From: Phyllobacterium sp. T1293
GTDB taxonomy: Bacteria; Pseudomonadota; Alphaproteobacteria; Rhizobiales; Rhizobiaceae
Direction: 5' to 3'
Length of the DNA: 64,000 nucleotides
Assembly (NCBI RefSeq): GCF_020731415.2
Contig: NZ_CP088276.1
Span: 124,001 to 188,000, forward strand
A program made the position numbers and the translations under genes. The notes below the pieces were generated by a model. It searched no databases, was not told the origin of the DNA, and saw only the letters and a program-made list of their open reading frames with translations. Of this stretch, positions 6,963 through 63,835 are shown piece after piece. Positions within the stretch are counted from its first letter, which is position 1; every line of letters starts with the position of its first letter.

Positions 6963-7017
6963 TGCATATCGATCCAGCACCATTCGCCCCTGTGCGTTGT
7001 ATTTCAGGAAGTTCAAA

Positions 7018-8100: not shown

Positions 8101-8157
8101 GATCGGATAGGGAGGCCGCAGTATCAAAGCATTTTGATCGCAATGATGGAGGAGCAA

Positions 8158-9444: not shown

Positions 9445-9472
9445 GGTTCCTGCGGTCCTGACTTGCCTTTCA

Positions 9473-9497
9473 GAACGCGGCTGCAACAGCCGCGTTC
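9473..9497 (+). other. Intercistronic stem-loop after the binding-protein gene
   Basis: Perfect 11-bp hairpin GAACGCGGCTG-CAA-CAGCCGCGTTC between the binding-protein and DUF2264 genes. No U-tract follows, so it is not a standard terminator. Such hairpins commonly protect the 3' end of binding-protein mRNA and raise its level over downstream genes. That function is inferred. Confidence 0.6.
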
Positions 9498-9523
9498 TTC
9501 CAGAATAATTATTGGAGTCCAGC

Positions 9524-11386: not shown

Positions 11387-11412
11387 GCAGAGTGTTGGAT
11401 TGTTTCGACTAT

Positions 11413-12327
11413 TTATTCCTGCGAACCGAGTTTTTCAATCAACACTCTAAGGTCCGAAATATCGCGCTCGCCACAATCCACCAATGGCGTGCGCACTCGG
11501 CCAGCTGACCGGCCAACGATAGCCGCGCCTGCCTTGACGATGCTGACGGCATAGCCGGGGACGCGATTGCGGATGGCAATGTAAGGCAGGAAGAAATCGC
11601 TGAGCAGTCGCGATGTTGCTTCGTGATCATTGGCCGAAACAGCCTTATAAAAATCAAGAGCAGTGCGGGGAATGAAGTTGAATACTGCCGATGAATAGAC
11701 ACTCACGCCCATGGCCTTGTAGGCTTCCGCGTACACTTCAGCCGTGGGCAGGCCGCCGAGATAGGCGAAACGATCACCTAGCCGCCTGCGGATCGAAACC
11801 ATATTCTCGATCTCGCCAATACCATCCTTGAAGCCGATCAGATTCGGGCATTTTTCCGCAAGTCGCTCCAGCGCATCAGCATTCAGCTTGCAGACATTGC
11901 GATTGTAGACGATGACGCCAAGGCCGGTCGCGGCACAGACGGCCTCGACGTGGCGGCAAATGCCCTCGGCACTGGTTTCCGTGAGATAATGGGGAAGCAG
12001 CAACAGGCCCGCCGCACCATTCTTCTCCGCATTGCGCGCCATTTGCGCGGCGATACGTGTTCCATAAGCTGCCGCCGCGAGAATGGGGACATCTTTTCCA
12101 CACGCTGCAACAGCTGTACGCACGACATCTTCATGTTCGCCGGGTGTCAGCGAGAATCCCTCTCCGGTCCCGCCGCCGACGAACAGCGCGGATGCGCCAT
12201 ATGGCGCAAGCCATTCCAGACGCTTTGTATAGGCCGAAGGCGCGAAATCGTCATTCTGGTCAAAGTCAGTGACAGGGAAGGAGAGAAGTCCGGAACTGAT
12301 TGTCTTCTTAAGCGTCTGGTAATCCAT
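11413..12327 (-). CDS. kdgD: 5-dehydro-4-deoxyglucarate dehydratase
   Basis: A 304-residue class I aldolase-fold enzyme of the DapA superfamily. It converts 5-dehydro-4-deoxy-D-glucarate to 2,5-dioxopentanoate with loss of water and CO2, on the oxidative route from uronic and aldaric acids to 2-oxoglutarate. Subfamily features are the opening [11 protein letters not shown], the Tyr in GVIVYNRN and the Schiff-base Lys in [14 protein letters not shown]. It converges on the DUF2264 gene and is transcribed away from a FadR-type regulator. The upstream region holds a motif shared with the ABC operon promoter at 13.44 kb, suggesting common control. Confidence 0.9.
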
Positions 12328-12359
12328 GAAAGCCTCGCGGGAGATCGAAAGTTGGTTAG

Positions 12360-12419
12360 GCGTATCATCTCATATGTCATCATACAACTGTTAAAATAGT
12401 GAGATACGCTTTTGCGGCC
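12360..12419. promoter_or_regulatory. Upstream region of the dehydratase gene with candidate FadR-type site
   Basis: Contains ATGTCATCATACAAC (12374-12388), which matches ATGTCATACAAC upstream of the ABC operon except for three extra bases. It is enclosed by long imperfect inverted arms, GCGTATCATCTCA at 12360 and TGAGATACGC near 12410. The site lies ~47 bases upstream of the dehydratase start. The FadR-type regulator at 12.4-13.2 kb is the obvious candidate binder (inference). Confidence 0.4.
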
Positions 12420-12439
12420 CCCCATATGATAAGTCGGGA

Positions 12440-13168
12440 TCAGGCTGTCTTTTTACCCGCAGCTGGTGCGTTGGTGCGCAGCCGATCACGACTGCTGCCG
12501 AGATGAAGCCGCATGGCCGCGCGTGCGCCTTCCACGTCCTGTGCTTTAATTGACTGGTAGATCTGGTCGTGTTCGCGATTGACCCGCTCCAGATACTCCC
12601 GTTGCGGCAGGCCATTGATCTTGTGTGTCTGAAGCCGCGTCCGGGGGATCAGCATTTCGCCCAAGTAATTGAACATACTAAGAAAATGTCGATTCTTGGT
12701 TGCGATCGCTATTGCGCGATGAAATTCCAGATCGGCCTGAACGGAGCTTTCGCCCTGTTCGATTGCTGCGTTCATCATATCGAGCGCATTTTTAATGCCG
12801 GCAAGCTCCGTCTCGTCTCGGCGCACGGCTGCCAGAGCTGCCGCTTCCAGCTCGATGCTGATACGCAATTCCATGACGCTGATGATTTCTTCAACCAGTT
12901 CTAGATTGTCTTCTTCGATCCGGAATGGTGCAGTCTGCAGGTCTTTCAGAACGAAAGCGCCGATGCCTTGCTGGGTATGAACAAGCCCTTTTGCCTTCAG
13001 ATTGGCAATCGCCTCGCGAACGACAGTGCGGCTGACGTTGAACTCTGCGATCATTTCCTGCTCAGTCGGTAGGCGTTCCCCTCGCTTGTAATGGCCCGAG
13101 GTTATGCGATCGGCAACAGCCTTAACCAATTGACCTGTAAGGGTTTCTCGCTTGCCAATGCCTGACAT
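12440..13168 (-). CDS. GntR-family regulator, FadR subfamily (FCD domain)
   Basis: A 242-residue regulator with an N-terminal winged helix (RLPTEQEMIAEFNVSRTVVREAIANLKAKGLVHTQQG-type sequence, residues ~30-65) and a C-terminal FCD ligand domain with the metal-binding Asp and His residues (DLEFHRAIAIATKNRHFL). FCD regulators typically sense sugar acids and carboxylic acids. It is encoded between the dehydratase gene (same strand, downstream) and the divergent oligopeptide-type importer, and a shared motif lies upstream of both, so it probably represses the whole uronate locus until an intermediate accumulates. Confidence 0.9.
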   Translation of the reverse strand: MSGIGKRETLTGQLVKAVADRITSGHYKRGERLPTEQEMIAEFNVSRTVVREAIANLKAKGLVHTQQGIGAFVLKDLQTAPFRIEEDNLELVEEIISVMELRISIELEAAALAAVRRDETELAGIKNALDMMNAAIEQGESSVQADLEFHRAIAIATKNRHFLSMFNYLGEMLIPRTRLQTHKINGLPQREYLERVNREHDQIYQSIKAQDVEGARAAMRLHLGSSRDRLRTNAPAAGKKTA

Positions 13169-47119: not shown

Positions 47120-47650
47120 TTACCTCAGAAGTTCTATCGTTCTGTTGAGTGCGGGCTCGAACCCCTTGAGAGATATGGAGAACGTAACGTCCTTTTCGGT
47201 GTCACTCGCGAAGGCTCCAAGGTTCAGGGCTTTTCCCTTACGCAGGACTTTGGTGGTTGCATCGGTGAAAGTCAGCGGGACAATGCAGCCGGTGGACATA
47301 CAGGTTCGAAACCGGGAAGGTTTTCCTGCCGGATTGTCATCGATGCGGAATGTGACGCCTTTCTCAAGATAAAGGCCAAAGGGCATGGCAAGATTGCCCT
47401 TCAATCCCGTATCACCGTCAGGCACGAACTCTATTGTCAATACGCGCTGCCCGCCCTTGTGCATCTGTTGCTGCGACAGGGCACAACGACGTGTACCGCT
47501 CTCCTGAACTGCACAATTTACGCTCCAATCCTCGTAGGTTTCGGAAAGGGAGGAGGGGGTGGCAACCGGTTTGGCTTCGGTCTGGGCATAAAGCGGTGTG
47601 GTGGCAAGCAAGCTTGCCACCACACCATAGATCACAGTGCGCAGACGCAT
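47120..47650 (-). CDS. IalB-family protein coupled to the autotransporter
   Basis: A 176-residue exported protein, paralogue of the one at 24.1-24.6 kb. The signal peptide ends TPLYAQTEA. IalB motifs are ETYEDWSVNCAVQ, TRRCALSQQQM, GNLAMPFGLYL and FRTCMSTGCIVPL. Its ATG shares one base with the autotransporter stop (TGATG), so the two proteins are made from one transcript. The coupling suggests that this IalB protein acts in the biogenesis, stability or host-contact role of that surface protein (inference). Confidence 0.88.
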   Translation of the reverse strand: MRLRTVIYGVVASLLATTPLYAQTEAKPVATPSSLSETYEDWSVNCAVQESGTRRCALSQQQMHKGGQRVLTIEFVPDGDTGLKGNLAMPFGLYLEKGVTFRIDDNPAGKPSRFRTCMSTGCIVPLTFTDATTKVLRKGKALNLGAFASDTEKDVTFSISLKGFEPALNRTIELLR

Positions 47651-50600
47651 CAGAATTTCACGCCGAGCTTCGCATCAACGGCATTTTGCGTAAGACCCGA
47701 GCCGTACTGTCCGGTATAGGTGAGACCGAGCGTTGCATTGCGGCTGAGCTTGAAGTCGACACCTGCCTCAACCATCGCCGTATCCTCGGCAATCGGCACA
47801 CCCGCCACCGAGAAAGCATTGCCGGTGGCAAAGGCAAGTGTCGAGTTTGGTGTAATATCACCATAGGCATGCTGCCAGCCGATTGTTCCGCGCGCTTCGA
47901 TATCCATCGTTCCCAGTGCAAAGGGTGCCGATGCGCGAAGACCCAGCGTGGTGAAGGTCGTATCGGTGGTATCGCTTCTGGCTGTCAGTGCTGCTGCACC
48001 GCCCTTTTCCGTAAAGCCATCGGTCTTCACCCGGACATGTGCCAGATTGGCAAAGGGTTCAAAGGCAACCCTGTTTGTATCGATCCGGTAGCCCAGTTCG
48101 CCAAAGGCCTGGAAGGTTGATGCATCATAATCGGCATTCAGATGTTCGGCAAAGCCGGGGAAGGCAACCGAACGGGCCGTTTCGATTGAATGCCAGCTAT
48201 AGGCAAGACCGGAGCGCAGGGACAGACCGCCCCAATGACCACCGCCATAGACACCGACATGATAATTGTCGCTGTTGCCGGAAGAGCCCTTGCCATCGAC
48301 ATCAAAGGTCGAGCGGCTATAGCCTGCCATGACACCCAGACGCCAGCTTTCGGCGATCGCCGTATCAAAGCCGGTGACAAAGCCGCCGGTTGACTGATCA
48401 AGCTTGGAGGCATTGCCATTGGACTTTGTCTCACTCCACACACCGAAGGCCTGACCCCAGGCGGCCATGACAGGTGCATCGGACGGAACCAGCGCCTTGG
48501 CATCCGGGCCGTAGCCCATGACGGGGACATCAACAGCCGCCACATCGCCAAAGGCTGCCCTGATCCGGTCATTGGCCGCATTGCGCAACAACTGGCTGCT
48601 ATTGACCAGTGCTGTCTTGGTTGAGGCATGTGCCTCACCCGACAACCGGCCAAATGCAGCACGCGCTTCATCGGCGCTCAGCAACGCTACGCGGTTATAC
48701 AGCGCCAGCGACGGCTCGCTCTGTGCAAGGCTGCCCAATGCACCTGCGGTATTATACTGATTGTCCGTCTGCGTAACTGTCTGGAACACATGGTTGATCG
48801 GACGTGGATTCGGTTTGGGCTCTGGCTTGGGTTCTGGTTTAGGCTCAGGTTTAGGTTCCGGCTTGGGTTCGGGTTTCGGTTCCGGTTTGGGCTCGGGGTT
48901 GACATCTTTGACGGCGATCTTCAGGTCAACCTGCTTTTCCTTCTGGTCCAAAGTAACGTCCAGAAATGCCGATTTGGATACAGCCTGCGCAAATTTGCCT
49001 TCAATACCCGTTTCTGCAGTCAAAATGGTGTATGTCTGCCCATTCTGATAGCTCGTTGCAGAATCTAGAGCGTTCACCTCGACGTTCACATTATTGCCGA
49101 TTTGCGCTACACCGCTGGGGCGGAAAAGTCCAATGATCGCATTTGGACCAATATCTTTTACGATAATCAAATCACTGGTACCGTTGCCCATGACATCGGC
49201 TTCATAAATCGAGCCATCTTTGAATTGCAGGGTGCCCATGACAGTCAGCGTTCCGGCCGAATTATTACCCGGTGAAATTCTGGCATTTGTTTCCAGTGTG
49301 ACTGAGCCAACTGTACCCGAGCCGCCCAGACGTCCAAAAAGAGTTGGATCGCGATCATCAAGTGCATTGTTGGATTGCGCCCCCCAAACCTCGATGTCAT
49401 TACTATAGTGGGTATATTCGTCTCCAAAAGAGGTTGTCTTATACGTACGCCCTACAATCCCATCGACGATAAGTGTACCGCTTTTTACGGTGAACTTAGA
49501 TTTGCTGTTATCTTCGGGATCGGGATCGAAATCTGTTGTGTCCAAATTACTCTTGATGACGAGTTTCGTGTCCTTACCGTCAACGTTGACTGTCCCGTCA
49601 CCGCCGTTCCCGGTATAAAATTGTGAAAGGTCACCCGTTATAATCGTTTCACCGGAGGTTGCATTGATGGTGCCGCCTCCCACTATGGTGTTTGAAAATA
49701 CATAACCCGAGCTGTTGTGATTAAACCAAATACTCGAATTTGATAGTGGGTCATTTACAAGTGTAACGATGGCATCGGAATTGATTGAGCCCGCCGCCTT
49801 GGTTTCACCAAAAACGACATCGCCATTTTGATTCTCAACAATGCCGCCAATGATCAGCGAGCCATCGATACGGATGCCGTTTCCAGCTTGAATGTGCCCG
49901 CCATCGCCCACGGCAACAACGCCGTTTGAAGACAATTTGCCCGTGACGTCAAATATTGAATTGGCGCCCTGCACCGAAAGGTAGGCCAAATCACCTACGC
50001 TGGCAGAATCCGCTTTTACCGATCCGCCACTTTCAACCTTGAAGCCGCCTTGCGAAACGATTGATAGCTTCGTCGCCTCCAAGCGACCGCCTTGTGAAAC
50101 CGCAATATGGCCGGTTTCGAAGGCACCTGTCAGGCGAAGTTCATCGTCTGCGTGAAGCAGAGAGTCTTTTCCAGATACGTTTGTTGTGCCACCCAATGTG
50201 AGGGTTTTGGTCTTTACTTCACCACCCTGTGCGATCGAGAAGCCGCTGGCATTCAACATGCTTCCGTTGTTCAGCCATTTGGAGCCCGCACCGCTTACAA
50301 GTGCAGGTCCGCCCTGTCCACCCAAGGAAACAGAGTTGGTGTTGATCTGTCCTTTATCAAGAATTGAGATCGGGTCAATGATACGGTCTGATCCGGAAAG
50401 GCCAACAAGCTCGTTGGCATTCAGAGCCGAGCCTTCCCCTTTGACAACAAGGACGCCTTGGGAACTATCGAAAATCGCGCTGCTCAACTGCAGAGAATTG
50501 ACGTTCACCTGCCCGCCATTCTCGATGACTAACTTGCCTTTTCCATAGGTATTTCCGAGACCTCCGATATAGAGAAGATCGCCTGTCAGATTCCATTCTG

Positions 50601-50997
50601 CGCCGGGTCCAGAAACCGTAACAACGCCAGAATAAGGGTTGTCATGGCTGCCACCCTGACCAATATAACCGTTTTTGCTGTAGGCCTTGACGCCCGATAT
50701 CAACAGCTCCGCTTGACTGCCGTTAACTGCCCCGACCCTTAGATCCCCGTTTATCGCACCATTCGTGCCATATGCAGATGTCCAACTATCTGTGCCCGTT
50801 GCCAAGGTGCAATTGGTGATATCCGAAGCATTTGTCTCGCATACAGTTTGCGCCTGCGCGCCGTTAATACCGATTCCCGCGGCAAGTGCTACGGTCGACA
50901 AAGTCAACCCAGAGACAAATCTCGTCCGTACACGTCCCAAAGCCGTCGTATTCAGAAGCGTATGCTTCACTCGTTTCGATCTGATTGTCCCGCTCAA
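47650..50997 (-). CDS. Type V autotransporter with Pro-Glu-Pro-Lys linker
   Basis: A 1115-residue surface protein. The first ~48 residues form an extended signal peptide (basic start, then LTLSTVALAAGIGINGAQAQ). A long passenger of beta-helix type follows, with many repeats of the form G-G-x-[VL]-x-[VA] (GGQVNVNSLQLSS; GGSVKADSASVGD) and a rare Cys pair near residues 53-63. A linker of seven EPKP units precedes the translocator barrel (~residues 830-1115), which opens near MAAWGQAFGVWSETKSNGN and ends in the terminal Phe motif (KLGVKF) recognised by BamA. There is no obvious protease triad, so it is probably an adhesin. It is coupled to IalB and divergent from a NarL-type regulator. Confidence 0.92.
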   Translation of the reverse strand: MSGTIRSKRVKHTLLNTTALGRVRTRFVSGLTLSTVALAAGIGINGAQAQTVCETNASDITNCTLATGTDSWTSAYGTNGAINGDLRVGAVNGSQAELLISGVKAYSKNGYIGQGGSHDNPYSGVVTVSGPGAEWNLTGDLLYIGGLGNTYGKGKLVIENGGQVNVNSLQLSSAIFDSSQGVLVVKGEGSALNANELVGLSGSDRIIDPISILDKGQINTNSVSLGGQGGPALVSGAGSKWLNNGSMLNASGFSIAQGGEVKTKTLTLGGTTNVSGKDSLLHADDELRLTGAFETGHIAVSQGGRLEATKLSIVSQGGFKVESGGSVKADSASVGDLAYLSVQGANSIFDVTGKLSSNGVVAVGDGGHIQAGNGIRIDGSLIIGGIVENQNGDVVFGETKAAGSINSDAIVTLVNDPLSNSSIWFNHNSSGYVFSNTIVGGGTINATSGETIITGDLSQFYTGNGGDGTVNVDGKDTKLVIKSNLDTTDFDPDPEDNSKSKFTVKSGTLIVDGIVGRTYKTTSFGDEYTHYSNDIEVWGAQSNNALDDRDPTLFGRLGGSGTVGSVTLETNARISPGNNSAGTLTVMGTLQFKDGSIYEADVMGNGTSDLIIVKDIGPNAIIGLFRPSGVAQIGNNVNVEVNALDSATSYQNGQTYTILTAETGIEGKFAQAVSKSAFLDVTLDQKEKQVDLKIAVKDVNPEPKPEPKPEPKPEPKPEPKPEPKPEPKPNPRPINHVFQTVTQTDNQYNTAGALGSLAQSEPSLALYNRVALLSADEARAAFGRLSGEAHASTKTALVNSSQLLRNAANDRIRAAFGDVAAVDVPVMGYGPDAKALVPSDAPVMAAWGQAFGVWSETKSNGNASKLDQSTGGFVTGFDTAIAESWRLGVMAGYSRSTFDVDGKGSSGNSDNYHVGVYGGGHWGGLSLRSGLAYSWHSIETARSVAFPGFAEHLNADYDASTFQAFGELGYRIDTNRVAFEPFANLAHVRVKTDGFTEKGGAAALTARSDTTDTTFTTLGLRASAPFALGTMDIEARGTIGWQHAYGDITPNSTLAFATGNAFSVAGVPIAEDTAMVEAGVDFKLSRNATLGLTYTGQYGSGLTQNAVDAKLGVKF
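48811..48894 (-). repeat. Seven 12-base repeats encoding EPKP units
   Basis: Seven consecutive 12-base units, each encoding Glu-Pro-Lys-Pro in the autotransporter linker. The units differ at synonymous positions, so the array is old and not strongly slippage-prone. The alternating Pro and charged residues would form a stiff spacer across the peptidoglycan or above the outer membrane. Confidence 0.85.
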
Positions 50998-51846: not shown

Positions 51847-53537
51847 TCATGCGTGGATGGGTTGTTGTTCTGTCTGAAGTTTCAGCGCCAGAATGGTTGA
51901 GCGCAGTTCGGCCGGGCGGATGGGCTTTGACAGGATTGGTATCTGCGGATCGCCGACATCATCACGCACACGGTTTTCGTCATGACCGGTTACAACAATT
52001 GCCGGGATCTTGCGGCCATTGGCCCGGCGGATATAGGCAATGCAGTCCGTCCCCGTGGTCTTGGCACCAAGGTCGAAGTCCGTGATGATGAAGTCGCAGG
52101 TCACATCCTTGCCTTCAGGAAGCGCATCCTCCTGTTGAACAATGCAGCCCCACTTCTCCAGAAGTATCCCGGTTGCCATGAGAATATTGACGTCGTCCTC
52201 CACCAAGAGCACGCGCAGGCCGTGCAGCAGGGAAGCAGGCTTGGCCCTGACCGTCTCAAGTGAACGAACCGGCTCTGCGACCATCTCAAAGCCATCGATG
52301 ATAACGGTCGTGCCCTGGTTCTCCACCGATCGCAGCGATACGTCCAGTCCCATGAGCGTGGCAAGACGCTGCACAATCGACAGGCCAAGGCCAACCCCTT
52401 CCGTGTCCTTGTCGCCGCGTTCGCGTACCTGATAGAATTCCTCGAAAAGCCGCGGCAGATGTTGTGCGGCAATACCGGGGCCGCGATCATGCACCTCGAT
52501 CGACAGTTTGCCGTCGCGCACCCGGCATCCCAGCAGAACAGGGCCACCCGGGCATATTTCAAGGCATTGGAAACAATGTTCTGGATCATGGTGGTCAGGA
52601 GGCTGGGATCGGTGCGCACGAACCTATGCGTTGCCACGACGGTGAGGGTCACACCGGCCCATTGGGCCGCTTCGGAATTCTGCCGTGCGATATCCTGCAG
52701 GATCTCACCGATGGCAACAGCTTCGGGCTGCGCCGATATCTTGCCGCTGTCGAGGGTCGAGATGTCGAGGAGGGACTGGAACAGGCGTGAAACGCTCTGC
52801 AGTGACCGGTCGATATTGTTGACCATCTGCTGTTCTTCAACGCCCAGTCTGGCATCGCGCAGGCAGGCGATGAACAGACTGATGGCGTGGATGGGCTGGC
52901 GCAGATCATGGCTTGCCTGTGCCAGAAACCGCGACTTGGCAAGGTTGGCTTCCAGCGCTGCATTGTAGGCCTTGTGGACACGCGTGAGCAGAATATAGAC
53001 ATAGGCGGGAACCAGAATGGCGGTCATCACAAGGGTGACGACAACATAGGGTTCACTGCGCCAGAAACTGTTGAAATAGGTGGTGGCTGCCAGGGCAACC
53101 AGCGCAACGACCGTCGCCGCTATCAGATAGCGTGGCCCATACCGCAACCCGTTGCCAACAGTGACCCATAACAATATGGCATATACCGGTAGGGCGGTCT
53201 CGCCGCCTGCGGACATTGCAAATGTCATCGCCAGATAGTCATGCGACATTGAAAAAATGCGGCGCAGTAAGTACGTCCCCGGCCAGGCAACGATACACAA
53301 GAACAGGATTGCCGATGAAATCACATAATACACCCAATAGGATACGTATATCGCCCTGAACTGGGGGGAGAACTCCTGAGATAGTCCAGCATATACAAGA
53401 TAACTGACAAAAAATGGGATGATGATAAGCCGAACGACAGCCTGTGCGCGTTCAGTGTCCTGTTCTTTCCGTTTGTAACGCTGAAACAACCCGCGGAATT
53501 TGGCGGGTATGTTTACCAAAGTGGCGTTCCTTTCCAT
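51847..53537 (-). pseudogene. Hybrid sensor histidine kinase, interrupted by a frameshift
   Basis: The first frame (from 53537) encodes membrane helices (~residues 30-180), the HisKA box (QASHDLRQPIHAISLFI) and the N box (TMIQNIVSNALKYA), then goes out of frame. The second frame picks up directly with GPVLLGCRVRDG, the ATP-site boxes (DRGPGIAAQHLPRLFEEF; GVGLGLSIVQRL) and a C-terminal receiver (VLLVEDDVNILM; Asp in FIITDFDLG; SKPI) and ends at 51847. Restoring one base in the CCC/GGG run near 52552-52554 gives a continuous ~563-residue hybrid kinase. Either the kinase is inactivated or the read lost a base. Its likely partner is the convergent NarL-type regulator. Confidence 0.85.
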
Positions 53538-55368: not shown

Positions 55369-55436
55369 TTTGGAGTGTGCAAGACAGCTGATTACCGTGG
55401 GCGGGCATCTTACCGCCATTTTAGTCGATGTGCTCA

Positions 55437-55455
55437 ATGCAACATCTTGCAACAT
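55437..55455 (+). promoter_or_regulatory. Tandem DeoR-type operator repeats upstream of deoR
   Basis: TGCAACAT occurs at 55438-55445 and again at 55448-55455, exactly 10 bases (one helical turn) apart, about 30 bases before the DeoR-family start. The complementary form TGTTGCA recurs upstream of the flavoprotein gene, which supports a common regulator. Confidence 0.55.
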
Positions 55456-55481
55456 TGGCCACGCTCAGACACATTGAGCGC

Positions 55482-56276
55482 ATGTCTGAATCAACCCCCC
55501 CAGCGGCGCGGGCTCTTGCTCCTCGTCGGCATGATGAAATCCTCAAGCGCGTCGCAGCTGACGGTTCCGTAAGCATTGCGGAATTGGCGAGGTTTTTTGA
55601 CGTCTCGCGCGAAACCATCCGCCGCGATCTGAAAGTGCTTGCCGATAAAGGGCTGTTCGAACTTATTCACGGCGGGGCTGCGCGATCGGATGCGGTAGAA
55701 CCCGGATTAAGCGAGCGTTCTCGCGAAAATGCGCAGGGCAAGGCCGTTATCGGGAAGCTTGCGGCAGATATGGTTGAGGAGGGGATGGTTGTTTTTCTCG
55801 ACTCAGGAACGACCACTTTGGCTATAGCGCATGCATTGGCTGCGTCTCGTCAGAACGTGACAATCTGTACCTCCAGTTTGGCCATCGCTCTTTTCACCTG
55901 TCATCTGCCAAATGTGCGGACACATGTGCTGGGCGGCGAAATCAATCCTGAGGAAGAAGCTGCATCTGGCATGGATGTTGTACAGGCTGCAGAGGCCTTC
56001 CGGATTGATGTGGCATTTCTGGGTGCGGGCGCCGTTACATCTGAAGGCGACATTACCGATTTTACAAAAGCAGGCTCTTTGTTGCGATCCCGGATGATTT
56101 CAATGGCGCAAGCGAGTTACTTCGTCATCGACGGTTCCAAATTTGGCCGCTCGACGCCGCTTAAAATACCAAACTCGCAGGATGCCACAGGGATCATTAC
56201 GGATCGGAATCCCAGCGATATTCTGGCCAATGTTCTCTCGCTAAAGGGCTTGGGCGTAATAATTCCTGCGGATTAA
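55482..56276 (+). CDS. DeoR-family transcriptional regulator
   Basis: A 264-residue repressor: N-terminal DeoR HTH (VSIAELARFFDVSRETIRRD, then GLFELIHGGA) and a C-terminal sugar-phosphate-sensor domain of ribose-5-phosphate-isomerase fold (VVFLDSGTTTLAIAHAL; HVLGGEINPE; VAFLGAGAVTSEGDITDF). The ATG 55482 is preceded by GAG; codons from 55428 would run through the operator repeats. It is followed after 86 bases by the flavoprotein gene and is likely to control it through the TGTTGCA motifs. A DeoR regulator in a phosphonate cluster suggests a phosphorylated effector (inference). Confidence 0.9.
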   Translation: MSESTPPAARALAPRRHDEILKRVAADGSVSIAELARFFDVSRETIRRDLKVLADKGLFELIHGGAARSDAVEPGLSERSRENAQGKAVIGKLAADMVEEGMVVFLDSGTTTLAIAHALAASRQNVTICTSSLAIALFTCHLPNVRTHVLGGEINPEEEAASGMDVVQAAEAFRIDVAFLGAGAVTSEGDITDFTKAGSLLRSRMISMAQASYFVIDGSKFGRSTPLKIPNSQDATGIITDRNPSDILANVLSLKGLGVIIPAD

Positions 56277-56314: not shown

Positions 56315-56362
56315 AATCTACGCATAGTGTGGCGACCATCTCTTACGGATGGATGGATCGTT

Positions 56363-58840
56363 ATGGCAAAAGCTTTTCCAACACAGGCGCGCGTGGTCAT
56401 TGTCGGAGGGGGCATCATCGGTTGCTCCGTCGCTTATCATCTGACGAAGCTCGGCTGGACCGACGTTGTTTTGCTGGAGCAGGGGCAACTCAGCGGCGGT
56501 ACGACATGGCACGCGGCGGGCCTTGTGGGGCAGCTTCGCAGTCATGCCAACATGACCGGGTTGATCAAATACTCGACCAAGCTTTACAGCGAACTTGAAG
56601 CTGAAACCGGTCTGGCGACAGGCTGGAAGAATTGTGGCTCTCTTGCTGTTGCCCGAACACAGGACCGCATGACGGTGCTGAAGCGGACAGCGGCGTCGGC
56701 GCGTGCGCAGGGCGTTGATGTCGATGTAATCTCGCCTGAAGAGGCTGCGAATATCTGGCCCGTTATGGCATCTGATGATCTCGTCGGGGCGGTCTGGCTG
56801 CCGGGAGATGGCAAAGCCAATCCAACTGATCTGACGCAATCGCTGGCCAAGGGTGCCCGCAATCGCGGTGCCCGCGTCGTCGAACGCGTCAAGGTGACGG
56901 GTATTACCGTCAAAAACGGTGTGGCCTGCGGTGTGGAAACCGACCAAGGGAATATAGCAGCCGAAATTGTCGTCAATTGTGCTGGGCAGTGGGCAAGACA
57001 AGTCGGATTGATGTGCGGCGTATCGGTCCCGCTGCATTCGGCAGAGCATATGTATATCGTGACCGGAAAGATCGAGGGTGTTCATCCCGATCTTCCCGTT
57101 TTGCGTGACCCTGATGGCTATATCTATTTCAAGGAAGAAGTGGGTGGTCTTGTCATGGGCGGTTTCGAGCCGGAGGCCAAGCCATGGGGGATGAACGGTA
57201 TCCCGGAGAACTTTGAGTTTGCACTTCTGCCTGACGATTGGGATCAGTTCGAGATATTGATGCAGAATGCGCTCATTCGCGTTCCGCAGCTCGAACATGC
57301 GGAAGTGCGCAAGTTTTACAATGGTCCTGAAAGCTTCACGCCTGATAACAATTTCATTCTGGGCGAGGCACCTGAGCTGAAGAACTTCTTTGTCGGGGCG
57401 GGGTTCAATTCCATGGGTATCGCCAGTGCGGGCGGTGCGGGCAAGGCGCTTGCCGAGTGGATCGTCAATGGCGCACCAACGATGGATCTTTGGCCCGTCG
57501 ATATCAGGCGCTTTGCTTCCTTCAACAACAATCCGCGCTGGCTGCATGACCGTGTGAAGGAAACGCTTGGCCTGCACTATGCCATGCCGTGGCCGAACCG
57601 CGAATTGGATACCGCGCGGCCATTCCGGCGCTCGCCACTCTATGATCGGCTTGCCGCCAAGGGTGCGTGTTTCGGTTCGAAGATGGGCTGGGAGCGTGCC
57701 AACTGGTTCGCCGCAGCAGGTGAAAAGCCCGAAACGCAATACGCCTTCGGCCGGCAGAACTGGCACGACGCAGTGAAGCGCGAGATGAAGGCAACACGCG
57801 AAACCGCAGCGCTTTTTGACCAGACATCCTTTGCAAAACTGCTCATACAGGGGCAGGACGCATGCACATTGCTCAACCGTCTCTGCGCTGCGGATGTGGA
57901 CGTGGACATTGGCCGCTCTGTCTATACCGGTATGCTCAATGAGCGCGGCGGCTATGAAACCGATCTGACCGTCATGCGGCTTGCCGCCGACCGGTTCCTG
58001 ATTGTGACAGGTTCCGCGCAAGCCGTGCATGATGCCGACTGGATCCGCAAGAATACGCCCGCTGATTGGCATGTTTCGCTGACCGATGTGACATCAGCCT
58101 ATTCCGTTCTCGCGCTGATGGGTCCCAACGCGCGTGACATTCTGAGCAAGGTTACTTCGGCGGATTTGTCGAATGAGGGTTTTCCATTCGCAACGATCCG
58201 CGAGATCGATATTGGCTATGCCACAGCCTATGCCAACCGTATGACCTATGTGGGGGAACTCGGCTGGGAACTGATTGTCCCGACAGAATTCGCCGTCGGT
58301 GTCTATGAGACCTTGCATGAAGCGGGGCGCGATCTCGGTCTCATCGATGCTGGATATTACGCGCTGGAAGCGCTGCGCCTTGAAAAAGGGTTCCGCGCAT
58401 GGAGCCGCGAGCTTACCCCCGATATCAATCCTTTCGAAGCGGGTCTGGCATTTGCGGTTTCGTTCGATAAATCGAGTGCGTTTATCGGCAAGGAAGCACT
58501 CGTGAAAGCGAAGCAAACAGGTGTGCCGCATCGCAAGATTGTGCAGTTCACCGTTGATGATGGCGAGCCGATGCTGTGGGGCGGTGAACTGATCCTGCGC
58601 AATGGCAAGCCGGTGGGCGAGGTGCGCTCGGCAGCCTATGGGCACACTCTTGGCCGCTCGGTTGCTCTGGCGCTGATTGAGAATGCAGAAGGGGTGAGCA
58701 AGGAATTCATCGAAAGCGGCGAATTCGCGATCGATCTCGCTGGCGCGCTTTATCCGGCAACCGCCCATTTGCGCAGTCCGTATGATCCAAAGTCGGACCG
58801 TGTGAAGGCCGATACAATCAAGGTGCAGGCGGCAGCCTAA
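56363..58840 (+). CDS. FAD-dependent dehydrogenase fused to a GcvT domain (dimethylglycine/sarcosine dehydrogenase-like)
   Basis: An 825-residue two-part enzyme. Residues 1-~430 are a DAO-type oxidoreductase: FAD site VVIVGGGIIGCSVAYHL and TTWHAAGLVGQLRSH, in which His50 matches the residue that binds FAD covalently in dimethylglycine dehydrogenase. Then comes an FAO_M linker, and residues ~430-820 form a GcvT-like aminomethyl-tetrahydrofolate domain (RETAALFDQTSFAKLLIQG; YVGELGWELIVPTE; EALRLEKGFRAWSRELTPD). Such enzymes oxidatively remove N-methyl groups and pass the C1 unit to tetrahydrofolate. Here it sits between DeoR and the phnWAY genes, so N-methylated 2-aminoethylphosphonate is a plausible substrate; this is inference, and sarcosine or dimethylglycine remain possible. 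Confidence 0.85.
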   Translation: MAKAFPTQARVVIVGGGIIGCSVAYHLTKLGWTDVVLLEQGQLSGGTTWHAAGLVGQLRSHANMTGLIKYSTKLYSELEAETGLATGWKNCGSLAVARTQDRMTVLKRTAASARAQGVDVDVISPEEAANIWPVMASDDLVGAVWLPGDGKANPTDLTQSLAKGARNRGARVVERVKVTGITVKNGVACGVETDQGNIAAEIVVNCAGQWARQVGLMCGVSVPLHSAEHMYIVTGKIEGVHPDLPVLRDPDGYIYFKEEVGGLVMGGFEPEAKPWGMNGIPENFEFALLPDDWDQFEILMQNALIRVPQLEHAEVRKFYNGPESFTPDNNFILGEAPELKNFFVGAGFNSMGIASAGGAGKALAEWIVNGAPTMDLWPVDIRRFASFNNNPRWLHDRVKETLGLHYAMPWPNRELDTARPFRRSPLYDRLAAKGACFGSKMGWERANWFAAAGEKPETQYAFGRQNWHDAVKREMKATRETAALFDQTSFAKLLIQGQDACTLLNRLCAADVDVDIGRSVYTGMLNERGGYETDLTVMRLAADRFLIVTGSAQAVHDADWIRKNTPADWHVSLTDVTSAYSVLALMGPNARDILSKVTSADLSNEGFPFATIREIDIGYATAYANRMTYVGELGWELIVPTEFAVGVYETLHEAGRDLGLIDAGYYALEALRLEKGFRAWSRELTPDINPFEAGLAFAVSFDKSSAFIGKEALVKAKQTGVPHRKIVQFTVDDGEPMLWGGELILRNGKPVGEVRSAAYGHTLGRSVALALIENAEGVSKEFIESGEFAIDLAGALYPATAHLRSPYDPKSDRVKADTIKVQAAA

Positions 58841-59709
58841 GCTGCCGGTGCCATTGATTTTGCGATGTCCAGAAACACCCGCACGAGTTTGCCGGCGCTT
58901 CGTTCGCGCAGGCAGATCAGCGCTTCGTCCATAAGCACTTCGGGACCGGCAATCGGAATTTGCACAAGTCTTGTATCCTGACCGAATTCTGCGGATGAGA
59001 CGAAACCAACACCGGCACCCGAAGCGACGATTTCACGGACAGCTTCGCGGCCTTCCGCTTCAATTGCCGACCTGAGTTCAAAGCCCTGACTTGCCGCATG
59101 ATCCTGCAGCTTTTGCCGTGTCTTCGAACCGCGTTCGCGCATGACCAGCGGCAGGCGTGTCAACTCTTCCAAGGTCAGGGATTGGGCCGTTGCCAGCGGG
59201 TGCTCATTGGAAACGAAGGCAACGATAGGGGTGGAATTGAGTTTCAGTATCTCGAAATCGCGCCCGGTTGGAATTTCGCCGAGAACGCCGATATCAGCCT
59301 CATAGCTGTAGAGACTGCTGATAACAGTTTCCGTATTGCCAGCGCGTACAGAGACCTGAATGCCCGGATATTTTTCGCGGAACGTCCCCAGAATATGCAG
59401 GAGATGGTGCGCCGCATCGGCGACAATGCGAAGGGTTCCCGCACGCAATGCACGGGATTCCGAAAGCAGTTCCAGAGCCTGTTGTTCGGTATCGAACATA
59501 CGGTGGGTTATTTCAAGGAGCCGCTGTCCGGCTTCCGTCAGAGTGACCTGCTTCTTGTGACGGTTGAACAGCAGAATATCATATTCTTCTTCCAGCTTGC
59601 GGACCTGATCCGAGATGGCGGGCTGAGTCAGGAAAAGCATTTCTGCAGCGCGTGAAAAGCCGCCGCATACCGCCACATGATGAAATGCGCGAAGCTGGAC
59701 ATAGCGCAT
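58837..59709 (-). CDS. LysR-family regulator of the phosphonate genes
   Basis: A 290-residue LysR-type regulator: HTH (GGFSRAAEMLFLTQPAISDQVRKLEEEYD-type, residues 16-44) and effector domain (AGTLRIVADAAHHLLHILG). It is divergent from phnW with ~165 bases between, and its stop overlaps the convergent flavoprotein stop by a few bases. LysR activators linked to phnWAY-type operons are known to respond to 2-aminoethylphosphonate; that role is likely here. Confidence 0.92.
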   Translation of the reverse strand: MRYVQLRAFHHVAVCGGFSRAAEMLFLTQPAISDQVRKLEEEYDILLFNRHKKQVTLTEAGQRLLEITHRMFDTEQQALELLSESRALRAGTLRIVADAAHHLLHILGTFREKYPGIQVSVRAGNTETVISSLYSYEADIGVLGEIPTGRDFEILKLNSTPIVAFVSNEHPLATAQSLTLEELTRLPLVMRERGSKTRQKLQDHAASQGFELRSAIEAEGREAVREIVASGAGVGFVSSAEFGQDTRLVQIPIAGPEVLMDEALICLRERSAGKLVRVFLDIAKSMAPAA

Positions 59710-59875
59710 GAATATCTCCTTTGACGGCCTGCCTTGTCATATCTGGGTTGCCGAACTGATATAGAGTGTATCGTCTCAGCTTATAGATCAATACAAAATA
59801 ACGATTTTACATATATATCGCACGCATGTGAAATGGCGGGCAAGAGCAGATCATGCCAGTCAGGAGGAAATGACA
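59710..59875 (+). promoter_or_regulatory. Divergent lysR-phnW control region
   Basis: A 166-base AT-rich gap between the divergent genes. It holds TATC-N14-GATA (from TATCTGGGTTGCCG to GATATAG, ~59740-59765) as a possible LysR half-site pair. No confident -35/-10 pair was found. AGGAGG at 59862-59867 is the phnW ribosome site. Confidence 0.35.
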
Positions 59876-61075
59876 ATGTTGGCCGGAAACCAGATTGCGA
59901 CAGCGCCATTCGATGAACCAGCGCTTGGCGAACCCTATCTCCTGACACCCGGTCCTCTCACTACGTCCTATGCGGTCAAGGAAGCAATGCTGCGCGACTG
60001 GGGTTCATGGGATGGCGATTTCCGCGCCATGACCGCTGAGCTTCGTCGCCACCTCCTCTCCCTGACAGGTGATACAAAGGACGAATTCGACTGTGTGCCG
60101 ATGCAGGGCAGCGGCACCTTTGCCGTAGAGGCGATGCTGGGCAGCCTTCTGCCGCGTGACAGCAAGACACTGGTTCTTGTGAATGGCGCCTATGGCCAGC
60201 GCATTGCGCAGACGCTTGACTATCTCGGCAGAGCCCATTCCGTTATCGACAAGGGCGATTATATGCCGCCACGCGGCGCCGAAGTTGCCGCTGCGCTGGA
60301 TGCTGATCCGGCGATTACCCACGTCATCATTGTCCATTGCGAGACAAGTTCAGGCATTCTCAATCCGGTGCATGAAATCTCGGAAGCGGTTTATGCCAAA
60401 GGTCGTAAGCTGCTGATCGACTCCATGAGTGCCTTCGGCGCCATATCGCTGGATGTGAACGAAATCCGCTATGAAGCCATGGTTTCATCGGCCAATAAAT
60501 GCATCGAAGGCGTTCCGGGTTTTGGTTTTATCATTGCGCGTAAGAGCGAGCTTGAAGCCGCCAAAGGCCGCAGCCATTCGCTCAGCCTTGATGTGTATGC
60601 CCAGTGGGCGCACCTCAACAAGACAGGGCAGTGGCGCTATACGCCGCCAACCCATGTGGTTGCGGCATTTCTCGTCGCGCTGCGCCAGCACGAAATCGAA
60701 GGCGGTGTAGCCGGACGGGGCGGCCGCTATACCCATAACCGCGATGTTATGGTTGCCGGAATGCGCGAACTTGGGTTTGAAACGCTGCTCAAGGATCACT
60801 GGCTTTCGCCCGTCATCGTCACTTTCTTCAACCCTGCTCATCCGAACTTTGCATTCGACCGCTTCTATGGGCTGATGAAGGACAAGGGTTTCATCATCTA
60901 TCCCGGCAAATTGACCGTGGTTGACAGTTTCCGTGTCGGCTGCATTGGCCGCATGGACGAGCATGTCATGCGCCGCGTGGTCAAGGCCGCCGGAGAATCC
61001 CTGCGCGAGATGGGTGTCGATACTGCCGCACCTCCCGCTGCTGCCATCGCTGAACGCGCCAAACTTGCGGCTTGA
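59876..61075 (+). CDS. phnW: 2-aminoethylphosphonate-pyruvate transaminase
   Basis: A 399-residue class V PLP aminotransferase that converts 2-aminoethylphosphonate and pyruvate to phosphonoacetaldehyde and alanine. Markers are [18 protein letters not shown] at the start, [13 protein letters not shown] around the cofactor phosphate site, the PLP-facing Asp in [10 protein letters not shown], the Schiff-base Lys208 in [14 protein letters not shown] and an Arg near [13 protein letters not shown] 59876 is eight bases after AGGAGG; ATG 59870 is too close to it. First gene of the phnW-phnA-phnY operon. Confidence 0.95.
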
Positions 61076-61102
61076 GCCGCTCCGTAAACAAGGAATACCC
61101 CG

Positions 61103-62359
61103 ATGAACCAGATGTCTCCTGTCAATGTCAGCGTCAATGGCCGCAATTATGCCTGGCCGCGCGTGACAGCTATTGCAATCTGCCTTGACGGCTGCGAGCC
61201 AGCCTATCTCGATGAGGCAATCAAGGCTGGCCTGATGCCCGCTCTGGTGAAGATCAAGGAAAAAGGCACGGTGCGCATGGCGCATAGTGTCATTCCAAGC
61301 TTCACCAATCCCAACAATATGTCGATTGCGACAGGACGCCCGCCAGCAGTCCACGGCATTTGCGGCAACTATCTCTATGAGCGCGAAACCGGTAAGGAAG
61401 TGATGATGAACGATCCGCGCTTCCTGCGCGCGCCGACCATTTTCAAAGCCTATTACGATGCTGGTGCTCGCGTCGCGGTGGTGACGGCCAAAGACAAGCT
61501 GCGCGCCTTGCTTGGCCATGGTCTGTCATTCGATGATAACCGCGCAATCTGCTTCTCCTCGGAAAAATCGGACACATCAACCAAAGCAGAGCACGGTATC
61601 GACAACGCATCCGCTTGGTTGGGCAGGCCGGTGCCGGAAGTCTATTCGGCTGAACTGTCAGAGTTTGTCTTTGCTGCCGGTGTCAAGCTGCTTGAGACGT
61701 TCAAGCCTGATGTGATGTACCTCACCACAACTGATTATGTGCAGCACAAATATGCGCCGGGTGTTCCTGAAGCCAATGCCTTCTACGAAATGTTCGACAA
61801 ATATCTGGCAGAGCTTGATGCGTTGGGGGCAGCTATTGTGGTCACCGCCGATCATGGCATGAAGCCCAAGCACAAGGCCGATGGATCGCCTGATGTGATC
61901 TATGTTCAGGACCTGCTCGATGAGTGGCTGGGCAAGGACGCGGCCCGGGTTATCCTGCCGATCACTGACCCCTATGTCGTCCATCACGGTGCGCTCGGTT
62001 CCTTCGCCACTGCCTATCTGCCTGAGGGTGCGGATCAGGCCGATATCATGGCGCGGCTGGCGAAAATTGAAGGGATCGACGTGGTTCTGGACAACGCCGC
62101 CGCCTGCGAGCGCTTCGAACTGCCGAATGATCGCATCGGCGATATTGTTTTCCTCTCCACGGAAAACAAGACACTCGGCACCAGTGAACACCGGCATGAT
62201 CTGGCTGCGCTTAATGAGCCATTGCGCTCGCATGGCGGGCTGACGGAGCAGGTCGTGCCGTTTATCGTCAACAGGAAACTGCCTGATCTGCCCAATGCAC
62301 CGGAACTGCGCAATTTTGATGCCTTCCATTATGCGGCGATGGCCGCGGCCCTGGTTTAG
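61103..62359 (+). CDS. phnA: Phosphonoacetate hydrolase
   Basis: A 418-residue zinc enzyme of the alkaline phosphatase superfamily that cleaves phosphonoacetate to acetate and phosphate. The catalytic residues fall at the positions recalled for S. meliloti PhnA: nucleophile Thr68 (IPSFTNPNNMS) and zinc ligands Asp29 (CLDGCEP), Asp211 and His215 (TTTDYVQHKY), Asp250 and His251 (VVTADHGMKP), plus a C-terminal His in RSHGG. It starts 27 bases after phnW. Confidence 0.95.
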   Translation: MNQMSPVNVSVNGRNYAWPRVTAIAICLDGCEPAYLDEAIKAGLMPALVKIKEKGTVRMAHSVIPSFTNPNNMSIATGRPPAVHGICGNYLYERETGKEVMMNDPRFLRAPTIFKAYYDAGARVAVVTAKDKLRALLGHGLSFDDNRAICFSSEKSDTSTKAEHGIDNASAWLGRPVPEVYSAELSEFVFAAGVKLLETFKPDVMYLTTTDYVQHKYAPGVPEANAFYEMFDKYLAELDALGAAIVVTADHGMKPKHKADGSPDVIYVQDLLDEWLGKDAARVILPITDPYVVHHGALGSFATAYLPEGADQADIMARLAKIEGIDVVLDNAAACERFELPNDRIGDIVFLSTENKTLGTSEHRHDLAALNEPLRSHGGLTEQVVPFIVNRKLPDLPNAPELRNFDAFHYAAMAAALV

Positions 62360-62377
62360 GCGGCGGAGAACACGATC

Positions 62378-63835
62378 ATGGTCAAGGCAGAAGCGGAATT
62401 CAGGGTACGTCACGAGCCGATGCGTATCGCGGGACGCAAAGTCGACGCGGATGATGTGATTGACGTTCACTACCCCTACACCAATGCGGTGGTGGGGACA
62501 GTTCCGGCAGGCCGCACAGAACATGCCCGGCAGGCTTTCGAGATTGCCGCCAATTATCAGCCGAAGCTGACGCGCTACGAGCGTCAGCAGATATTGTTCC
62601 GTACAGCCGAAGCGCTGGCCAGTCGCCGGGAAGAGATTGCCGATCTGATTACGCTGGAACTTGGCATTTCCAAAGCGGATTCCCTTTATGAAGTAGGCCG
62701 TGCCTATGATGTGTTCACCCTGTCAGCGCAGATGTGCATTCAGGATGATGGCCAGATTTTCTCCTGTGATCTGACCCCGCATGGCAAGGCACGCAAGATT
62801 TTCACGATGCGCGAACCGCTGAAGGCGATCTCGGCGATCACGCCTTTCAATCATCCGCTCAATATGGTGTCGCACAAGATTGCACCTGCCATCGCGACCA
62901 ACAATTGCGTCGTCTGCAAGCCGACGGAACTGACACCAATGACGGCGCTGGTGCTGGCTGATATTCTTTATGAAGCTGGTCTTCCGCCCGAGATGTTGTC
63001 GGTTGTCACCGGCTGGCCTGCGGATATCGGCATGGAAATGATTACCAATCCGAACATCGAGCTTATCACCTTCACCGGCGGTGTGCCCGTCGGCAAAATG
63101 ATTGCCAATACAGCCGGTTACAAGCGCGCCGTGCTTGAACTTGGCGGCAATGATCCCCTGATCATTCTCAATGATTTGAGTGACGATGATCTGGCCAAGG
63201 CGGCTGATCTGGCGGTTGCCGGGGCAACCAAGAATTCCGGACAGCGCTGCACGGCGGTCAAACGCATTCTCTGTCAGGAAAAAGTGGCTGACCGTTTCGT
63301 GCCGTTGGTACTGGAGCGGGCCAAGAGACTGCGGTTTGGCGATCCAATGGACCGCTCAACCGATCTTGGCACCGTGGTTCACGAAAAGGCCGCCACCCTG
63401 TTCGAAGCTCGTGTGCATATGGCTGCGGAGCAGGGGGCTGATATTCTTTACAATCCCGGTCGTCAGGGCGCGCTGTTGCCGCCCATTGTTGTCGATCGTG
63501 TACCGCACGCATCGGAACTGGTCATGGAAGAGACCTTCGGGCCGATCATCCCGATTATCCGGGCGCCTGATGATGACGATGCTTTGATTGCGCTTTCCAA
63601 TTCCACCGCATTTGGCCTTTCCTCCGGTGTCTGCACCAATGATTTCCGCCGTATGCAGAAATATATTGCCGGTCTTCAGGTTGGCACGGTCAATATATGG
63701 GAAGTACCTGGTTACCGGATCGAAATGTCGCCCTTCGGCGGGATCAAGGATTCCGGCAATGGCTATAAGGAGGGCGTTTCCGAAGCCATGAAGAGCTACA
63801 CGAATGTGAAAACCTATTCACTTCCCTGGTCCTGA
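62378..63835 (+). CDS. phnY: Phosphonoacetaldehyde dehydrogenase
   Basis: A 485-residue NAD-dependent aldehyde dehydrogenase that oxidises phosphonoacetaldehyde to phosphonoacetate, linking PhnW to PhnA. The catalytic Cys291 ([10 protein letters not shown]) and general base Glu254 (AVLELGGND) match the S. meliloti PhnY numbering as I recall it, with the NAD Lys in [10 protein letters not shown] and the anchor [12 protein letters not shown] near the C-terminus. It starts 18 bases after phnA and is followed by a terminator, closing the operon. Confidence 0.95.

Follow-up and report, generated by a model that had tools for sequence, protein, structure and literature searches.

A GcvT-fused flavoprotein in a 2-aminoethylphosphonate locus of Phyllobacterium: a candidate folate-coupled demethylase of N-methyl-aminoethylphosphonate

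Relation to described flavoproteins and proposed reaction

Demethylating flavoproteins of the dimethylglycine dehydrogenase (DMGDH), sarcosine dehydrogenase (SarDH) and dimethylglycine oxidase (DMGO) type are recognized by the presence of DAO, FAO_M, GCV_T and GCV_T_C domains in one chain. An enzyme built like the human protein that demethylates dimethylglycine is encoded in the 64,000-nucleotide stretch of Phyllobacterium sp. T1293 analysed here (NZ_CP088276.1, positions 124,001 to 188,000; hereafter the window), which lies on a contig (C4) of 476,847 bases in a genome of 5.07 Mb. Its gene stands, as the initial annotation had it, beside phnW, phnA and phnY, and its product carries the TTWHAAGL motif and a GcvT half. 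The hydrolytic pathway trio for 2-aminoethylphosphonate (AEP), PhnW, PhnY and PhnA, is complete at the locus, each member above its curated cut-off (Table 1). The FAD-GcvT protein comprises PF01266 (residues 10-366), PF16350 (369-424), PF01571 (426-697) and PF08669 (724-808), and its predicted fold matches the DMGDH/SarDH/DMGO type over the full length (model predicted local distance difference test score, pLDDT, 86.7).

With mitochondrial DMGDH (rat 4PAB, human 5L46) the window enzyme has in common the full-length DAO-FAO_M-GcvT architecture, the histidine for covalent attachment of flavin adenine dinucleotide (FAD) and a His/Tyr dyad, but identity is 35-36%, the setting of the window enzyme is AEP use and DMGDH falls outside its clade. 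The oxidase of Arthrobacter globiformis (AgDMGO; 1PJ5/1PJ6/3GSI) shares the architecture, the folate aspartate (Asp552) and the dyad His225/Tyr259; at 32% identity, however, it differs in being an oxidase with a proline (HAPGL) where the window enzyme reads HAAGL. An Ala/Ile residue pair is described as typical of dehydrogenases (PMC5082570), and the alanine of HAAGL together with Ile353 of the window enzyme, as placed by our own alignment, match this pair. The ‘methylamine-type’ label first given to the enzyme does not fit, since its relatives are dimethylglycine dehydrogenase and oxidase; methylamine dehydrogenase was rejected as an identity, being of the wrong family.

N-methylated AEP, a phosphonate common in nature, is not accepted as a substrate by PhnW (PMC10590968). 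The same source describes three DAO-domain enzymes, PbfB, PbfC and PbfD, that recur in phnWX and phnWYA clusters, with N-methyl-2-aminoethylphosphonate (M1AEP) a demonstrated substrate of PbfC and PbfD and strong evidence for PbfB; when PbfC and PbfD were assayed for AEP and formaldehyde, the products were instead phosphonoacetaldehyde and methylamine (PMC10590968). The flavin of PbfC and PbfD is released on heating and is therefore not covalently bound (PMC10590968). Like these enzymes, the window gene lies in an AEP degradation cluster and encodes a PF01266 protein; in contrast to the non-covalent flavin of PbfC and PbfD, it specifies a covalent-FAD motif and, judged by sequence, its products should differ too. 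The recurrence of DAO enzymes in phosphonate clusters, to which attention had been drawn at the outset, is thus upheld, but the purified enzymes from that group do not release AEP. TIGR03364, the model that annotates the assayed PbfD1, scores the FAD-GcvT protein at 72 bits (cut-off 285), a value that speaks against a PbfD1 identity. The words folate, GcvT and Sinorhizobium are absent from the main text of PMC10590968, and a GcvT-fused enzyme in AEP use is the subject of no paper among the matches listed (titles, starts of abstracts and passages; supplements not covered). The architecture and the recurrence of DAO enzymes in AEP clusters are each known separately; their combination, with a different predicted chemistry and strict co-occurrence, appears new among the matches listed.

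Residue conservation was assessed in an alignment of 32 rows (23 from the clade of the window enzyme, nine from paralogues). His50, at the covalent-FAD position, is invariant in all 32, and the motif around it points to covalent attachment of the flavin. The catalytic dyad is retained as His229/Tyr255, aligned to His225/Tyr259 of AgDMGO, and so is the folate residue Asp534, aligned to Asp552 of AgDMGO and replaced in two of the 23 clade rows by glutamate, as in human DMGDH; allowing for this replacement, the GcvT residues Asp534, Arg626, Tyr629, Glu632 and Glu636 are kept in 23/23. Four residues, Ile68, Lys151, Ser226 and Ala227, set the clade apart: every clade row has them and none of the nine paralogue rows does, Val, Met or Cys standing there in place of Ala227. 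Ala227 lies with His229 on the predicted strand 225-234, where His225 is found in 22/23 clade rows and also in one paralogue from the same genome (L003). In a tree of 100 proteins, obtained by a quick method with a program warning on long outgroup branches, the 86 rows of the window clade form one group with a support of 99. Human DMGDH falls outside it, grouping with the paralogues L004, L005 and L006 of the Phyllobacterium genome, while the nearest paralogues from that genome are L002 and L003.

We hold with moderate confidence that a flavoprotein of the dimethylglycine/sarcosine-dehydrogenase type has here been recruited to aminophosphonates, coupling the demethylation of N-methyl-AEP to folate and feeding the resulting AEP to PhnW. 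In such a reaction the DAO half, with its predicted covalent FAD, would oxidize the N-methyl group of M1AEP, and possibly also of N,N-dimethyl-AEP (M2AEP), to a methylene iminium, which would travel through an internal chamber to the GcvT half; there the carbon would be transferred to tetrahydrofolate (THF), giving 5,10-methylene-THF, with release of AEP. The overall conversion would be M1AEP + THF + acceptor to AEP + 5,10-methylene-THF + reduced acceptor, with the electrons most likely passing to an acceptor protein or a quinone, not to O2, and PhnW, PhnY and PhnA would then take AEP to acetate and phosphate. A folate-coupled demethylase feeding PhnW had been proposed in the initial annotation, and the proposal is partly supported by gene neighbourhood, co-occurrence, a paralogue control and the kept folate and flavin residues, from which we infer the substrate and product.

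Association with AEP genes and rival readings

The association between the enzyme and AEP genes is not a local accident and is seen in several samples. Within a family sample of 247 genomes, which includes the window's own and in which an enzyme was called at an identity of at least 72%, the enzyme occurs in 19 and PhnA in 47; all 19 enzyme genomes have PhnA, where 3.6 would be expected (hypergeometric, taken without regard to phylogeny, 6e-16; by genus 11/11 against 29/109, 9e-8). PhnA lies at most 15 kb from the enzyme in 14 of the 19, while in the remaining five it is found 81-266 kb away on the same contig (three genomes) or on another contig (two), so that the link is one of co-occurrence and not of adjacency only. 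PhnW is above its cut-off in 19/19, a count made in enzyme-carrying genomes only, and is weakly in keeping with AEP as the product. The PbfD model TIGR03364 (E 1e-40) found no match in the 19 enzyme genomes, a weak result since no control genome matched either.

The order sample of 150 genomes, again with the window's own, allowed the same association to be set against paralogues. Five of its eight enzyme rows (at least 64% identity), one of the five being from the window's own genome, lie within 20 kb of PhnA, against 0/114 paralogue rows (43-56% identity, E 1e-220 or better, up to six candidates scored per genome) and 0/51 when PhnA-bearing genomes are considered (Fisher 3e-7). In two genomes (G044 and G080) PhnA is far from the enzyme; open reading frames (ORFs) of transporter size and order adjoin the enzyme there, and AEP genes are present in their loci.

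Species genomes were scanned for relatives, and neighbourhoods were compared for the best 80 of 335 (identity 69-98%; chiefly from Rhizobiales and Rhodobacterales), several of whose genomes also belong to the order and family samples. Up to 10 kb either side was considered, and PhnW, PhnA, PhnY, the AEP transporter (AepX, AepW) and PbfA were sought by BLAST with set identity limits. The outcome that the initial annotation had named as refuting its idea, close homologues mostly in glycine betaine or sarcosine loci, was not borne out as far as these genes and the betaine-type genes considered below go: the enzyme has at least one of the AEP genes at a distance of no more than 10 kb in 71/80 loci, and in all five additional loci, which were chosen because each contains a relative at 64% identity or above. 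Over the 85 loci together (L093 duplicates L018) some member of the set is present in 76, with PhnW in 60, PhnA in 58, PhnY in 54, AepX in 49 and PbfA in 30, the PbfA-like copy of L022 scoring 683 bits for NF049939 (cut-off 525). A DeoR-type gene at least 40% identical to that of the window occurs in 53/85 and Na/Pi-cotransporter-like genes in 36/85. No fewer than six gene orders are seen for the enzyme (E), the DeoR-type cluster (D), LysR (L), phnWAY and the transporter (xvw) (D-E-L'-WAY; WAY-xvw-D-E; L'-WAY-D-E-xvw; L'-WAY-E-xvw; D-E-xvw-L'-WAY; inverted Y'A'W'-L-D-E), and the persistence of enzyme and AEP genes together despite such rearrangement speaks for function. One of the records (L052) is labelled Bacillus subtilis SK6B4; in the tree, however, its enzyme groups with those of Pseudochrobactrum, its gene order is nearly that of L051, and the record is probably mislabelled or mixed.

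Other FAD-GcvT paralogues of the Phyllobacterium genome stand in betaine-like settings, which we count in favour of the proposed reaction. A tandem pair (51% and 36% identity) adjoins genes for a GcvA-type regulator and a GbcA-like Rieske protein, and single copies lie near a GbdR-like regulator (38%) and in the company of MttB-like, betaine-homocysteine methyltransferase and ProV genes (32-35%). A further paralogue (51%) lies near a GlpR-like regulator. The tandem pair and its Rieske gene (L095, G000:C1:1392000-1411000, 6926-13097), flanked on one side by genes for arginase and ornithine aminotransferase, are probably a separate quaternary-amine demethylation cassette.

Several observations weigh against a role in N-methyl-AEP use. 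L003, a near paralogue, is a member of this tandem pair and so adjoins the Rieske gene; the hypergeometric figures for co-occurrence ignore phylogeny, and the best-80-of-335 set is biased to close relatives. One genome of the order sample (G002, enzyme 69%), the third with an enzyme row away from PhnA, has no PhnA match, its locus (L087) holding PhnW-like and AEP-transporter genes. Nine of the 80 loci contain no AEP gene: four (L060, L064, L065, L070) are cut by contig ends and five (L049, L050, L053, L079, L086) are full-length, three of the latter being of Pseudochrobactrum type and corresponding by coordinates to genomes (G243, G316, G375) in which PhnA and PhnW are present elsewhere. No recurring folate-enzyme gene was seen in the neighbourhoods, except for a RibD_C protein in Aminobacter.

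Betaine-type signs also appear at the loci, a GbcA-like Rieske gene in seven and a GbdR-like regulator in 15/85, other betaine and sarcosine genes not having been searched for, and these genes could hint at a genomic tie to the use of betaine, choline or sarcosine. The GbdR-like regulators, of AraC/GlxA type and at least 40% identical, stand beside the enzyme at, for example, L041 (7891-8994; 286 bits, cut-off 480) and L031 (7895-8953), and suggest induction by a methylated amine. A conventional sarcosine or dimethylglycine dehydrogenase placed in an AEP cluster by chance is nevertheless very improbable, given PhnA in 19/19 enzyme genomes, AEP neighbours in 71/80 loci, a clade separate from DMGDH and same-genome paralogues that sit with betaine-type genes. 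Folate-coupled chemistry on another main substrate, be it N-methyl-1-hydroxy-AEP, M2AEP or an N-methyl phosphoethanolamine derived from lipids, would find some support in the genes for PbfA-like hydroxy-AEP lyases and for Na/Pi-cotransporter-like proteins noted above; PbfA is rarer at the loci than PhnW, PhnA, PhnY and AepX, and we regard this reading as unlikely.

A different course for the oxidation itself is suggested by PbfC and PbfD, which as DAO enzymes of AEP clusters give methylamine and phosphonoacetaldehyde with no detectable formaldehyde (PMC10590968). The window enzyme might likewise oxidize the ethyl side of M1AEP directly, its GcvT half being a structural leftover, and it could occupy the slot of a stand-alone DAO enzyme, no ORF of that kind between 90 and 700 aa having been found in the 85 loci (E 1e-6); as a check, the search returned 107 matches in 97 loci, the two below 700 aa both lying in short, end-cut loci of the Phyllobacterium genome. 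A leftover GcvT half, however, sits poorly with folate-domain residues kept in every clade row, and a PbfC/PbfD-like route needs no PhnW for methylated substrates, yet PhnW is found in all 19 enzyme genomes. The invariant His50, too, contrasts with the non-covalent flavins of PbfC and PbfD (PMC10590968). We think direct oxidation of this kind quite unlikely, and the folate-coupled removal of the N-methyl group from M1AEP is the reading that we retain.

Loci with a further FAD-GcvT enzyme and a Rieske oxygenase

Seven of the best-80 loci (four Aminobacter, two Shinella, one Ensifer) contain, besides the window-type enzyme, genes for two more proteins, a Rieske oxygenase and another FAD-GcvT enzyme (the second FAD-GcvT enzyme). 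Taking the copies of Shinella zoogloeoides (L031) as reference, the Rieske proteins of the other six loci are 78-85% identical, and the second FAD-GcvT enzymes, a group of their own in the tree (support 100), are 86-89% identical. The Rieske protein shares Rieske and Ring_hydroxyl_A domains with the N-demethylases GbcA and Stc2, and GbcA is its best NCBIfam match, but at 350-360 bits against a cut-off of 670. Its relatives in the PDB are 3N0Q and the Stc2-type demethylases 3VCA and 4QUP.

On plasmid pUSP1 of Aminobacter sp. MSH1 a first run of genes encodes a GlxA-type regulator, GcvA, the Rieske protein, a PDR/VanB-type reductase (Fer2), the second FAD-GcvT enzyme, DeoR, a RibD_C protein and the window-type FAD-GcvT enzyme; six other genes spanning about 5 kb follow, and then a phn region, whose phn genes start some 5-8 kb beyond the first run, in the order LysR, Na/Pi cotransporter, phnW, phnA, phnY, DMT transporter and AEP transporter. 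The reductase gene is present in the four Aminobacter loci and was not found in the other three Rieske loci. The RibD_C gene, annotated as ‘dihydrofolate reductase family’, directly adjoins the enzyme in Aminobacter (L101, 15126-15785, minus strand; also L014, L015, L016, L024 and L045). In an Ensifer locus (L034) a fragment at 3927-4247 on the minus strand matches 49 residues of the Rieske oxygenase at 88%, and the second FAD-GcvT enzyme was not found there; the two may have been lost together from this locus.

The Rieske gene occurs only where the window-type enzyme is also present, as judged from the 247 genomes of the family sample and ten genomes of the genus of G199. It is found in a single genome of the family sample (G199), adjoining the window-type enzyme, and in six of the ten, with that enzyme 5.3-5.5 kb away in 6/6; two of the ten have the enzyme without the Rieske gene and two have neither. 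These counts overlap, G199 being one of the six and at least three of the six (G393, G394, G396) coinciding by coordinates with the Aminobacter loci L014, L024 and L045. The second FAD-GcvT enzyme (E 1e-290) has matches in 3/247 genomes, of which only G199, at 87%, places it between the Rieske gene and the enzyme; the matches in G150 (56%) and G182 (54%) are more distant.

From this gene order we put forward tentatively, as a possibility short of probable, that some of these bacteria run a ‘phosphonobetaine’ pathway, in which trimethyl-AEP (M3AEP) is demethylated in three steps before entering the PhnW-PhnY-PhnA route. The Rieske oxygenase, with its own reductase, would strip the first methyl group as formaldehyde, the second FAD-GcvT enzyme would take the next as methylene-THF and the window-type enzyme would take the third. 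Three demethylases for three methyl groups suggest, by analogy, a parallel to the conversion of betaine through dimethylglycine and sarcosine to glycine, although glycine betaine itself may instead be the substrate with which such a cascade begins. The only route for trimethyl-AEP degradation known to PMC10590968 employs two iron oxygenases.

Layout of the Phyllobacterium locus and implications

The locus extends beyond the genes first assigned to it, which are all present and were typed by Pfam and NCBIfam: a co-directional DeoR/GlpR-type gene lies upstream of the FAD-GcvT gene, and three ORFs with the position and lengths of an AEP transporter stand just past the window end (L098 from 10094, about 93 bases beyond 64000). 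The DeoR-type and LysR proteins may both control the cluster.

Table 1. Genes and the putative flavin-attachment codon of the AEP locus, in window coordinates
Feature	Position	Strand	Evidence or remark
DeoR/GlpR-type regulator gene	55428..56276	+	PF00455 143 bits, PF08220 58 bits; 86 bases upstream of the FAD-GcvT gene, co-directional
FAD-GcvT fusion protein of 825 aa, a predicted folate-coupled dehydrogenase that would demethylate N-methyl-AEP	56363..58840	+	Pfam domains
Codon of His50, equivalent of the covalent-FAD histidine (TTWHAAGL)	56510..56512	+	Aligned to WHAAGL of human DMGDH
LysR regulator, aminoethylphosphonate type	58837..59709	-	TIGR03339 376.7 bits, cut-off 341.1
phnW, 2-aminoethylphosphonate--pyruvate transaminase	59870..61075	+	TIGR02326 478 bits, cut-off 400.8; TIGR03301 466 bits, cut-off 361
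phnA, phosphonoacetate hydrolase	61103..62359	+	TIGR02335 541.5 bits, cut-off 407.55
phnY, phosphonoacetaldehyde dehydrogenase	62378..63835	+	TIGR03250 828.9 bits, cut-off 635.65

An in-frame GTG at 56327 offers an alternative start of the FAD-GcvT gene (837 aa), and the ends of this gene and of the LysR gene overlap by four bases. The phnW start was set by eye, at the ATG that precedes TMLAG; in the ORF list it is the GTG at 59828. With TIGR03261 (cut-off 393) and TIGR03262 (cut-off 593), the transporter proteins of L011 and L010 reach 504 and 773 bits. Phyllobacterium sp. 628 has an identical gene order on a plasmid of 612 kb, where the enzyme is 93% identical and a putative AEP transporter is annotated downstream; the enzyme of Phyllobacterium sp. 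OV277 is 98% identical. Elsewhere in the window, a sensor kinase/receiver on the minus strand (51847-53537) appears by eye to be split over the overlapping ORFs 52101-53537 and 51847-52521, as by a frameshift or sequence error, and a 1115-residue ORF on the same strand (47650-50997) has, also by eye, the look of an autotransporter adhesin, with repeats, a proline-rich linker and a C-terminal barrel.

Methylamine, a product of the known FAD route for N-methyl-AEP, has to be dealt with by the cell in a separate way. With a folate-coupled route, if confirmed, the cell would conserve this methyl carbon in the form of a one-carbon unit and hand AEP back to PhnW, leaving the rest of the molecule usable for phosphorus, nitrogen and carbon. 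Such a route would represent a fourth independent solution to the N-methyl-AEP problem; its Rieske extension would add a demethylation route for trimethyl-AEP. To a specialist the proposal should appear plausible rather than shocking, and its claim about model rhizobia is concrete. Sinorhizobium meliloti 1021, in which Borisova and colleagues reportedly studied phnWAY, has on pSymB (1060537-1063011) an orthologue 87% identical to the window enzyme, so that the folate-coupled route would be present in that strain itself, and phosphonate use would be tied to folate metabolism in rhizobia and roseobacters.

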